DNA of 47,946 nucleotides, taken from contig CP070632.1 in assembly GCA_020356065.1 (NCBI GenBank), positions 1,302,796 through 1,350,741 on the forward strand, in the 5' to 3' direction. Positions 1,136 through 24,530 of the stretch are shown here, piece after piece (position 1 is the stretch's first letter; each line of letters starts with the position of its first letter). This DNA comes from Nitrospiraceae bacterium (GTDB taxonomy: Bacteria > Nitrospirota > Thermodesulfovibrionia > UBA6902). The notes beneath the pieces are model-generated. The model was not told the DNA's origin, did no database searches, and saw nothing but the letters and a program-made list of their open reading frames with translations. Made by a program: the position numbers and the translations under genes.

Positions 1136-2011
1136 ATGGGAATAGTTCATGTCCCGGTCATGAGGGAGGAGGTTCTGGAAAACTTGGCTTTAAAAGAATC
1201 TGGAATATATGTTGACGCAACACTGGGACCCGGAGGGCATGCAGAGGGAATTCTTCAAAATGCCGGTAAATGTGTACTGATAGGAATAGACAGAGATGAT
1301 GAGGCCCTCACATTGGCAGGTGAACGGTTAAAAAAGTATGACAATATTCATTTAATCAGGGACAGCTTTTCAAATATCAAATCTGTTGTATCAGGTCTGG
1401 GCTATAGCGAAGTCGACGGTATTCTTCTTGATCTTGGTTTTTCAACTCTACAGATGAAGTCAGATAACAGGGGGTTCAGTTTTCTTAAGGACGAGCCTCT
1501 GGACATGCGCATGGACAGAAGGCAGGAATTGACAGCAGAAACTATCGTAAACACGTACCACTGGCAAAAACTGGCAGACATTATATGGAAGTACGGTGAA
1601 GAGAGGAAAAGCAGGAGGATTGCAAGGGCGATTATTTATGCGCGTGAAAAAAAGAAAATACACTCATGCAGAGAACTTGCGTTGATTATAGAAAAATCCA
1701 TCGGCAGAAAACAGAGGATTCACCCGGCAACAAGGACATTTCAGGCACTCAGGATAGAGGTAAACAGAGAACTGGAACAGGTTGATACAGTCATAAACGA
1801 AGGAGCGGACATCCTTAGAAAAAAGGGCAGGATATGCATTCTTGCGTATCATTCTCTGGAGGACAGGATCGTAAAAAATGCATATAAAAAACTTGCACAG
1901 CAGGGGCTGTTCAATATCATCACAAAAAAACCATTGATACCGCGCAGGGAAGAACAGAGAGCAAATCCTTCTTCCCGGAGTGCAAAACTGAGGGTGGCTG
2001 AAAAAATATGA
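1136..2011 (+). CDS. rsmH: 16S rRNA (cytosine1402-N4)-methyltransferase RsmH
   Basis: RsmH (MraW) uses S-adenosylmethionine to methylate N4 of C1402 in the 16S rRNA decoding centre. The 291-residue product begins with the family pattern HVPVMREEVLENL and has the SAM-binding loop DATLGPGGHAEGIL around residue 28. Further family motifs are LDLGFSTLQ, FSFLKDEPLDMRMD, TFQALRIEVNRELE and the C-terminal AYHSLEDRIVK. Length is slightly below the usual 300-310. The ATG directly follows the mraZ stop; an AAGGAGGAG lies about 20 bases upstream inside mraZ, so initiation may depend on coupling. The end overlaps ftsL by four bases. Confidence 0.95.
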   Translation: MGIVHVPVMREEVLENLALKESGIYVDATLGPGGHAEGILQNAGKCVLIGIDRDDEALTLAGERLKKYDNIHLIRDSFSNIKSVVSGLGYSEVDGILLDLGFSTLQMKSDNRGFSFLKDEPLDMRMDRRQELTAETIVNTYHWQKLADIIWKYGEERKSRRIARAIIYAREKKKIHSCRELALIIEKSIGRKQRIHPATRTFQALRIEVNRELEQVDTVINEGADILRKKGRICILAYHSLEDRIVKNAYKKLAQQGLFNIITKKPLIPRREEQRANPSSRSAKLRVAEKI

Positions 2012-20221: not shown

Positions 20222-20734
20222 ATGAAGCGTTTTGTTTTATTAGCAGTATTAAGCATGATTTTAGTAGCTACACATAGTTACGCAGATGAAGAAGGTCATA
20301 TGATGGATTCTGGCATGATGGGCAGTCCCGGATATGGAGAAACAGCCGAGTCTGGTTCAGAGTCTTACGAAATGATGGGGTATGGAATGGGATCTGGCAT
20401 GATGAATCCCGGGATGATGGGTTATGGTGGATGCGGAATGATGCCCCCCGGTATGATGGGGTATGGTGGATACGGCATGATGAAGCCTGGAATGATGAGA
20501 CACCACCAGATGATGCATGGTGTCGGGAAGAGCGGAATGATGGGCGAAATAAGTCCGGAAGAGCAGCAGAAGTTTCTGAATAATACGGTGGAACTGAGGA
20601 AGCAGCTTATGATGAAAAGATTTGACTATAGCGAGGCATTAAGAAAGTCTGAAACAAAAGCTGACGAGTTAAAAAAAATCGAAAAGGATATGTGGGAAAT
20701 ACAGAAAAAGATTGCTGACACGTGGTATGAATAA
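20222..20734 (+). CDS. Met-rich periplasmic protein, probable metal binding (CpxP/ZraP-like)
   Basis: The 170-residue product has a clear Sec signal (MKRFVLLAVLSMILVATHSYA, cleavage after about residue 21). A Met/Gly/Tyr-rich region with a 13-residue repeat of the type MMxPGMMGYGGxG follows at about 60-100, then HHQMMHG. The C-terminal part (from EISPEEQQKFLNN) is a charged helix pair resembling the periplasmic CpxP/Spy/ZraP superfamily. Clustered Met and His suggest binding of Cu(I) or a similar soft metal. A GGGGG ribosome site precedes the start. It follows a YHS pseudogene and is closed by its own terminator. Metal specificity is inferred. Confidence 0.75.
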   Translation: MKRFVLLAVLSMILVATHSYADEEGHMMDSGMMGSPGYGETAESGSESYEMMGYGMGSGMMNPGMMGYGGCGMMPPGMMGYGGYGMMKPGMMRHHQMMHGVGKSGMMGEISPEEQQKFLNNTVELRKQLMMKRFDYSEALRKSETKADELKKIEKDMWEIQKKIADTWYE

Positions 20735-22941: not shown

Positions 22942-23247
22942 TTACCTGTCTCCGGACGTCGCGTGTCTGAAAGCGGCCAGGTAACAGTATGAAATAACTG
23001 TCCCCAGAACGATTTTCCCTGTAATTGAAGTTACTCCATCATAGAGGCCTGTAAACTTAAATACTGCGAGGCCTGCCAGAACTATCAGAATTGAGGTTAT
23101 CAATTCAATAGCCAGACCGAATGTCCTGTGTTTACCCTGTTCCTGTACTTCTTGAAATTCAACTGATATTAAAGTATTGCTCATCACTTCCTCCTTGCTG
23201 TTGGTTTGCATGTTCCGAGCTGCAGATAATCCTTCTAACGTTGTCAT
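22942..23247 (-). CDS. Small two-helix membrane protein, unknown family
   Basis: From ATG 23247 (ribosome site AAAGGGG) the product has 101 residues. An in-frame ATG at 23184 with an even better AAGGAGG site gives 80 residues, so the start is open. The shared part has two hydrophobic segments, AIELITSILIVLAGLAVFKF and GKIVLGTVISYCYLAAFRHA. I do not recognise the family. It is the only gene behind a -24/-12 promoter, an upstream inverted repeat and a structured-looking leader, so its expression should depend on sigma-54 and an activator. A membrane stress or signalling role is possible but unproved. Confidence 0.65.
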   Translation of the reverse strand: MTTLEGLSAARNMQTNSKEEVMSNTLISVEFQEVQEQGKHRTFGLAIELITSILIVLAGLAVFKFTGLYDGVTSITGKIVLGTVISYCYLAAFRHATSGDR

Positions 23248-23291
23248 GCTCGTTCCCCTTTCAATATTTTTTCTCACTCCCTGTTAACTTA

Positions 23292-23349
23292 TCAGGTGAA
23301 TCCTGACTCTTACAGTAGCCCTTCCTACCAGCCCTGATTACCCTCAGGG
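23292..23349 (-). promoter_or_regulatory. Leader with three short hairpins
   Basis: Between the sigma-54 promoter and the membrane protein gene, three small stems occur in sequence: CCCTGA/TCAGGG (23332-23337 with 23344-23349), GTAG/CTAC (23315-23318 with 23325-23328) and TCAGG/CCTGA (23292-23296 with 23302-23306). They lie in an untranslated leader of about 150 bases. I could not match it to a known riboswitch consensus. Confidence 0.35.
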
Positions 23350-23407
23350 TCGCCAAGGTTAAGGTTGTGATGTTGTCTGTTTTTAAACTGCTCATTTCTC
23401 TGAAAAA

Positions 23408-23423
23408 GCAATTCCCTTGCCAA
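23408..23423 (-). promoter_or_regulatory. Sigma-54 (-24/-12) promoter
   Basis: On the minus strand TTGGCAAGGGAATTGC matches the RpoN consensus TGGCAC-N5-TTGC. GG (-24) and GC (-12) are exactly 10 bases apart, and a T-run follows the -12 element. It points towards the small membrane protein gene. The predicted transcription start is near 23397. Confidence 0.75.
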
Positions 23424-23486
23424 ATGCATAACTAATTGTTTTAATAAATTAAAGCATTATCGTTGCGAAGGGATGCATATTGATTT

Positions 23487-23509
23487 CCGGTAACGGCAAT
23501 GTTATCCGG
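23487..23509. promoter_or_regulatory. Inverted repeat at upstream-activator distance
   Basis: CCGGTAAC (23487-23494) and GTTATCCGG (23501-23509) form an inverted repeat with one extra base, around GGCAAT. It lies about 100 bases upstream of the predicted sigma-54 transcription start, where activators of the sigma-54 class usually bind. Confidence 0.5.
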
Positions 23510-23558
23510 TAGCAGATAAAAGATTAACAGAGAGGGAATAAAGTGGAGAATAATATTA

Positions 23559-23584
23559 ACCCACGTCCCGTTAGGAACGTGGGT
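23559..23584 (-). terminator. Probable terminator of the PPIase gene
   Basis: ACCCACGT (23559-23566) pairs with ACGTGGGT (23577-23584), with two further C-G pairs inside after a mismatch. Read on the minus strand it is followed by TTAATATTATT, a broken T-rich tail. It lies 26 bases after the stop at 23610. Confidence 0.6.
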
Positions 23585-23609
23585 CTTTGATGTTATGTGG
23601 ATGAAATAA

Positions 23610-24530
23610 TTATTTTGCTTCTTCAGTCTCTGGCTGCACAGCAGGATCGGGAGCTGCTGCTTCTGTAGTGTCCCATGGGAGAGAAATGGATGCCAGAGCT
23701 TCGATTTCCTTTGATATTTCGGTGTCAGCCTTGAGTTTGTCAACAAATGAGTCAAAAAGGGCCTTTTGTTTTTCTGCTGCGATTTGTCTCCTTATGGACT
23801 CAGCAGACTGCTCAAAACTTGCAAGTTTACCTTCTTTAATGTCATCAAGTCTGATAATATGGTAACCAAAACGTGTGCTTACAGGGTTACTGATCTCACC
23901 GGGTTTGAGATTAAGCACGGCCCGCTCAAACTCTGGTACCATTTTACCTCTTCCGAAATACCCCAGGTCTCCACCTTTCTGGCCGGACGCCTTGTCTATT
24001 GACAACGTCTTTGCCAGATCGGCGAAGCTCGTTCCTTTTTCAAGTCTGGCAGCGACATCTTTTGCCTCATCTTCTGTTTTTACCAGGATATGGCTGGCCT
24101 TGATCTCCGTGCCTATCCTGAACTTGTCGGAGTTTTCATCATAAAAGGCCTTAACCATTTCATCATCAAGCACTGTTTTCTCTTCGACTTCCTTTTTTAA
24201 TATCATTGTCACAAGGGTCATCTTTTTGAACTCTTCAACTTTATCCAGGTATTCCCTGTCATTCTGCATTCTCATTTTTTTTGCATATTGGTATACCAGC
24301 TCTTTCTTAACCAGCTCATCAAGGAACTTACCCTTCCCGTCAAGGTCTTTAAAATTGGATCGCGCCCACTCGGGGACCCGGCTTATCTCCCTGATATAGT
24401 CATCATGGGTTATTACACTGTCTCCAACTCTGGCCAGAACAGGACTGTCAGACCTTGGTTCCTGTGAGCATCCTGCAACGAAAAGGACAGAACATAATAT
24501 TAGTAAGATGTGACGACAGAATTTTTCCAT
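23610..24530 (-). CDS. Parvulin-type peptidyl-prolyl isomerase lipoprotein (PrsA/SurA-like)
   Basis: This 306-residue periplasmic chaperone has a lipoprotein signal with lipobox LFVAGC (Cys near 21). A SurA_N-like helical region follows at about 30-130 (VGDSVITHDDYIREI, DELVKKELVYQYAKK), then a parvulin domain at about 140-235: IKASHILVKTEDEAKD, FADLAKTLSIDKASGQKGGDLGYF, MVPEFERAVLNLKPGEIS, FGYHIIRLDD. A charged tail rich in Ala/Pro/Glu ends it. Such proteins catalyse proline isomerisation and help fold exported proteins. AAGGAG lies eight bases before the ATG. It is divergent from the small gene at 24712 and ends at its own hairpin. Confidence 0.9.
   Translation of the reverse strand: MEKFCRHILLILCSVLFVAGCSQEPRSDSPVLARVGDSVITHDDYIREISRVPEWARSNFKDLDGKGKFLDELVKKELVYQYAKKMRMQNDREYLDKVEEFKKMTLVTMILKKEVEEKTVLDDEMVKAFYDENSDKFRIGTEIKASHILVKTEDEAKDVAARLEKGTSFADLAKTLSIDKASGQKGGDLGYFGRGKMVPEFERAVLNLKPGEISNPVSTRFGYHIIRLDDIKEGKLASFEQSAESIRRQIAAEKQKALFDSFVDKLKADTEISKEIEALASISLPWDTTEAAAPDPAVQPETEEAK

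Follow-up and report, generated by a model that had tools for sequence, protein, structure and literature searches.

The leader region in front of a gene for a small membrane protein in a Nitrospiraceae bacterium almost certainly belongs to a structured RNA family that has not been described previously. This RNA lies just behind a sigma-54 promoter in the stretch of 47,946 nucleotides that was analyzed (hereafter called the window), and copies of it recur in front of several unrelated genes in relatives of the class Thermodesulfovibrionia. We favor, with a probability of roughly 0.6, a reading in which the RNA is a cis-acting, riboswitch-like leader that would add post-transcriptional control to a sigma-54 regulon.

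Promoter and leader RNA of the window locus

The following features were assigned at this locus, all of which are on the minus strand.

23558..23585: intrinsic terminator ending the PpiC/SurA-like gene upstream and isolating the unit (stem of 12 pairs, 7 of them G-C, and a tail containing T)
23505..23511: first TACCGGA repeat, probably bound by an activator (enhancer-binding protein) (promoter comparison and genome pattern scan)
23486..23492: second TACCGGA repeat, 19 nt beyond the first and likewise a probable activator site (promoter comparison)
23408..23422: sigma-54 -24/-12 element TGGCAAGGGAATTGC (GG-N10-GC spacing; RpoN present)
23280..23369: conserved structured RNA element, 90 nt (sequence similarity, covariance models, and covariation)
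23364-23359/23286-23281: RNA helix P1
23349-23344/23337-23332: RNA helix P2
23330-23325/23318-23313: RNA helix P3
23307-23302/23296-23291: RNA helix P4
23359-23355 with 23344-23340: probable pseudoknot, ACCUU with AGGGU
23312-23308: invariant UAAGA
22942..23247: small membrane protein with two helices; 101 aa if translated from ATG 23247, 80 aa if translated from ATG 23184 (the two starts are conserved, each with a ribosome site)

An earlier, sequence-only reading of this DNA had proposed a sigma-54 promoter here, and this proposal is borne out. The element at 23422-23408 has exact GG-N10-GC spacing and takes the form TGGCA-N6-TTGC, and the genome encodes one RpoN. Judging from the promoter position, the transcript would start near 23396. 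This places 149 nt before the ATG at 23247, in agreement with the leader of about 150 bases with three small hairpins that had been described, and three hairpins are indeed present. The terminator separates the promoter from the PpiC-type gene, which occupies positions 23610-24530.

The same reading had pointed to an inverted repeat, CCGGTAAC/GTTATCCGG, upstream of the promoter. This is an imperfect dyad peculiar to the window copy, and we rejected it as an operator because the dyad is not conserved. Its place is taken by the direct repeat TACCGGA. Direct repeats of the TACCGRA type (TACCGRA-N11-14-TACCGRA, 18-21 nt apart) are clear at nine promoters and weak at a tenth, in four genomes, and the first copy lies 86-92 nt upstream of TGGCA (the -24 element) in nine or ten promoters. 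The direct repeat is probably an activator site. Conservation of promoter and repeat upstream of orthologs had been named in advance as a test of the claim, which survived it: the ortholog in G001 keeps the promoter, the activator repeat, and the RNA, and the ortholog L004 in G002 retains the promoter and repeats but is missing the RNA. Because L004 lacks it, the RNA is not indispensable for the gene.

Folding of the single leader sequence is unremarkable (z = -0.58), and therefore the hairpins could not be trusted from one sequence. Comparative evidence places them on solid ground, with hairpins P2 through P4 and their conservation shown by comparing sequences among copies. Covariation, which had been suggested as a check on the leader, is clear. 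In an alignment of 21 copies that was fitted to the model and leans towards the modeled structure, 90.9% of cells are paired across the 24 pairs of the four helices. Changes on both sides are present at 15 of the 24 pairs (shuffled mean 9.1; best slid control 7) and amount to 51 cells (shuffles 14.9; slid controls at most 15). Likewise, RNAalifold run without constraint predicts P2, P3, and P4, and does not predict P1.

The compensating changes extend across two families of the class, which we call f1 (the family that includes the genome carrying the window) and f18. P3 appears as GGUGG/CCACC, GGAUG/CAUCC, GGCGG/CCGCC, and AGUG/CACU in f1 and as GAAAG/CUUUC in f18, and P4 is UCAGG/CCUGA in f1 versus CUAUC/GAUAG in f18. 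P1 is weak in f1, with about 70% of cells paired overall, and P1 and the pseudoknot are less firm in f1 than the three covarying hairpins. In every copy, the strand joining P1 and P2 can pair with the P2 loop over 4-6 bp (ACCUU/AGGGU, ACUUU/AAGGU, CCGCU/AGCGG, CUGCU/AGCAG). Swapping the strands between families gives poorer pairing, but because the difference is modest we consider the loop pseudoknot only probable.

The invariant junction bases are CUURGCGACC, GGCU, and GUAAGA. The invariant unpaired bases include the UAAGA that follows P3 and some of the P1-P2 joint, and the P3 loop is purine-rich with a conserved GG. The window and its G001 ortholog are 87% identical in the RNA and 75% identical in the ORF, compared to 49-51% in the spacers on both sides.

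Scans of Rfam 15 at permissive thresholds with the window copy and 11 other copies returned nothing near the gathering threshold, and gave only chance-level matches at or near the element. No model of the c-di-GMP-I clan (RF01051/RF03167) matches the RNA copies, whereas the same kind of scan finds RF03167 in L010 and L012. The segment GUAAGAGUCAGGANACACCUG resembles the 3′ portion of cobalamin riboswitches, CUGUAA...AGUCAGGANACCUG. A cobalamin-like 3′ hairpin was nevertheless rejected, given that no cobalamin-family model is among the Rfam matches at permissive thresholds and that the likeness is not conserved, as compensating changes give P4 another sequence in f18. Searches of a literature library for sigma-54 leader RNAs or for a comparable RNA motif in Nitrospirota returned nothing relevant.

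Distribution, promoters, and associated genes

The genome that carries the window has 4 copies of the RNA, since a DNA search with the leader gave three besides the window copy (82-89% identical over 61-82 nt). DNA similarity searches that included relatives yielded 18 copies in six genomes. A covariance model (R1) extended the set to another family of the class, where divergent copies match with E values of about 1e-9, and a further model (R2) matched 10 of 230 class genomes, representing 7 genera and three families. By covariance models, there are 21 strong copies in nine Thermodesulfovibrionia genomes and one weaker copy in a tenth. The weakest copy (L086), from the order-level relative G032, scores 36 bits and has no recognizable sigma-54 box. 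The 5′ half of L086 (~1501-1581, minus strand) overlaps a 13-codon ORF, MSELIVNSFLATH, that has a strong ribosome site and lies ahead of a secreted-type protein.

Outside the class, R2 found no match among 396 genomes sampled evenly from the phylum. A stringent sequence pattern applied to 84,980 species, each represented by one genome, matched 14 stretches, 13 of which are from Nitrospirota MAGs (titled as Thermodesulfovibrionia or “Nitrospiraceae”); the remaining one, from Bacteroidales (L073), was rejected because it fails the covariance model. Viral, plasmid, and phage collections contain no copies, and a phage or plasmid origin was rejected on this basis. Several model matches were set aside as chance or as a different element, namely the weak matches L050, L051, and L056 (G004 and G018) and also L082-L085, which fall inside apparent coding sequence. 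The first three carry a different recurring element, GTTGCATAARCCGGCGGGARAGKCCGCCGTAAAA, that is weakly similar to the RNA and resides ahead of genes, one of them receiver-like.

Of 20 copies with upstream sequence, 15 are preceded by a TGGC[AG]-N6-TTG[CA] box that ends 11-39 nt before the RNA, and the -12 position of these boxes is GC except for three instances of GA. By our own calculation, which assumes equal base frequencies, a chance match to a sigma-54 box is expected about once per 1,300 stretches of 50 nt. Three other copies have TTGACA-N17-TAAAAT 100-130 nt upstream in place of the sigma-54 box, and the remaining two (L057 and L061) are located behind another small gene, between two genes of one likely operon. 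These intercistronic copies and the three with TTGACA-N17-TAAAAT suggest that the RNA is tied to the following gene rather than to the promoter.

A sequence-pattern search for a genome-wide regulon in the genome carrying the window gave 4 matches to the repeat-plus-sigma-54 arrangement and 0 in a reversed control. Three of these are RNA copies, and the fourth (L095; G000:C1:2972853-2972955, minus strand) lacks the RNA and precedes a gene for a small secreted-type protein. This promoter lies between that gene, which is followed by a 350-aa lipoprotein-like ORF, and a gene for a 441-aa protein of repeated “ASGxxSEANxGS” units, in what looks like a surface-fiber locus. In G001, the site L092 is followed by an apparent decayed remnant of the RNA.

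The leader had been viewed as private to one small protein, which is too narrow: the RNA recurs before several unrelated genes, and is apparently free-standing in f18. In most f1 copies, a start codon with a ribosome site is found 10-48 nt behind the element. The products encoded directly behind the RNA include the window protein and its ortholog; 51-aa one-helix proteins (L060, L062, and L064) whose genes differ mostly at third codon positions; hydrophobic peptides of 27-30 aa (L059, L061, and L063) that end with LLCLST plus a few residues; membrane proteins of 46 and 89 aa, one of each; a one-helix protein of 70 aa; receiver-domain proteins (PF00072) of 159 aa; and secreted proteins, among them one that has CARDB and subtilase domains. 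Pfam and NCBIfam searches with the small proteins gave nothing.

The window protein, earlier called a two-helix protein of no recognized family, matches no Pfam or NCBIfam family above the cut-off, and AlphaFold with 13 relatives predicts two helices with moderate confidence (pLDDT 67). Its two in-frame starts at 23247 and 23184 have a similar counterpart in three relatives (L003, L004, and L008), and possibly give rise to two protein forms or to an in-frame leader segment. Further members of this protein family have sigma-54-like boxes without the RNA. Elsewhere in the window, positions 20222-20734 (plus strand) encode a Met/Gly-rich secreted-type protein with GYGMM repeats and a weak DUF2680 match below the cut-off, and this protein is possibly metal binding.

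Homologs of the window protein from the same genus (L010/L102 and L012/L106) carry a c-di-GMP-I-GGC riboswitch in the leader, above the Rfam cut-off.

L010 1253-1331, plus strand: RF03167 riboswitch
L012 1808-1730, minus strand: RF03167 riboswitch

The genome carrying the window has 13 RF03167 matches, seven of them above the cut-off, and across the genus these riboswitches precede genes for tiny one-helix membrane proteins, secreted proteins, and others. With the new RNA before the window protein and RF03167 before L010 and L012, leader RNAs have come to precede members of the two-helix family on at least two occasions. Since c-di-GMP riboswitches lie ahead of homologs of one of the targets, they provide a brief initial set of candidate signals.

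The f18 copies (L079-L081) have a different arrangement. Each is single in its genome and follows a TGGCAT-type sigma-54 box located 23-32 nt before the RNA, which ends in its own 16-18-bp P1 and a U-run, about 100-130 nt upstream of uvrC. The sequence of this P1 is wholly different between genera, and yet pairing is kept. The f18 copies have their own promoter and a terminator-like end, whereas no terminator is seen for f1 copies, and the f18 RNA appears to be free-standing.

Possible functions of the RNA

In the cis-acting, riboswitch-like reading, an activator of the NtrC type would bind the TACCGRA repeats and turn on transcription by RpoN polymerase, as the conserved sites suggest. The leader would then fold so that P1 encloses P2, with its loop pseudoknot, as well as P3 and P4. 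The invariant junction bases may bind a small molecule or a protein, and binding might alter mRNA stability or the accessibility of the ribosome site, which lies 10-30 nt beyond P1. Riboswitch-like action of this type would operate in a regulon of tiny membrane, receiver-domain, and secreted proteins. This reading draws on an aptamer-like domain, covarying stems, and invariant unpaired bases, and on a 5′ UTR position deduced from the promoter and start codon. It is also favored by the start codons with ribosome sites close behind most f1 copies, by the intercistronic and TTGACA-type copies, and by the c-di-GMP-I riboswitches that occupy the equivalent position ahead of window-protein homologs. 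The earlier suggestion of signal-responsive control is reasonable, and we expect, with somewhat more assurance than for the reading as a whole, that in the genome carrying the window the RNA has its effect in cis, on the gene behind it. That it binds a small ligand has slightly less than an even chance. Counting against a cis-acting leader are the free-standing look of the f18 copies, the absence of the RNA from the ortholog L004, the incomplete pairing of P1, and a modeled structure in which no ribosome site is visibly sequestered.

It is mainly the f18 form that limits our confidence, because it keeps alive the prospect that the main role of the RNA is that of a trans-acting small RNA dependent on sigma-54, which would either base pair by means of its G-rich P3 loop or serve as a protein decoy. 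The leaders in the genome carrying the window would then be duplicates that gained small ORFs behind them. Sigma-54-dependent small RNAs such as Pxr are known, the conserved GG in a purine-rich P3 loop would suit this role, and the f18 copies, with a single sigma-54-driven copy per genome, a long P1 with U-run, and P1 pairing that persists despite sequence change, have the expected form. However, we consider this unlikely, as the f1 element has no U-run or terminator and is followed within tens of bases by ORFs with ribosome sites, and as the intercistronic and sigma-70-type copies fit poorly with a pure small RNA. We assign a still smaller chance to the prospect that the RNA has no ligand-specific role and is a passive 5′ stabilizer or a dispersed repeat. 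Its location near the predicted 5′ end, its several copies per genome, and the ortholog without the element are compatible with such a role, but invariant unpaired junction bases across families together with compensating stems are unexpected for a passive hairpin or a decaying repeat, and the copies are unrelated in their outer flanks.

A more specific version of the riboswitch-like reading is that the element is a riboswitch of new architecture for c-di-GMP or a related cyclic dinucleotide. The RF03167 representatives shortly upstream of the window-protein homologs, and the fact that in the same genus RF03167 and the new RNA precede the same kinds of genes, point in this direction. However, this is an association of gene kinds only, and the RNA matches no c-di-GMP family in sequence or structure. 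Sensing of a cyclic dinucleotide is conceivable but quite unlikely. More broadly, and still doubtfully, the RNA could represent a new riboswitch class, so far confined to Thermodesulfovibrionia, that senses a cyclic dinucleotide or other signal and gates translation of tiny membrane or surface proteins under a sigma-54 activator, with the same RNA free-standing in another family. If true, one aptamer fold would serve both as a leader and as an independent RNA.

Comparison with known systems

The findings add a structured RNA family to a phylum for which we found almost no regulatory-RNA literature. They also suggest a two-layer logic, in which an activator-dependent sigma-54 promoter is followed at once by a conserved RNA domain, and this arrangement has been put to use at several unrelated small genes. 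The leader form of the RNA and its apparently free-standing form in f18 can be compared as they occur in nature.

Like the new RNA, c-di-GMP-I-GGC (RF03167, clan CL00126) is a leader RNA that in the same genus precedes members of the same two-helix family as well as tiny membrane and secreted proteins. In contrast, the new RNA has no sequence or covariance-model match to it, and is distinguished by three hairpins closed by P1, a probable loop pseudoknot, and other conserved bases. The sigma-54 small RNA Pxr of Myxococcus resembles the new family in that a short structured RNA occurs just after a -24/-12 promoter, and the f18 copies share a terminator-like end. Qrr of Vibrio, another sigma-54-dependent small RNA, can be likened to the new RNA on the same grounds. 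Unlike these small RNAs, the RNA in the genome carrying the window runs into an ORF without a terminator, and the new family has no Rfam match.

Another parallel is the PrsR/sigma-54 regulon of PEP-CTERM genes, wherein an activator motif about 63 nt before the -24/-12 box is followed by a leader and surface-protein genes (Haft 2006, PMC1569441). We rejected the PrsR motif as an explanation for the repeats described here because the activator site differs, with the PrsR site ending in TTTACA versus the TACCGRA repeats. Although a structured RNA is not described in that report (PMC1569441), the succession of activator motif, -24/-12 box, and leader is common to both systems.
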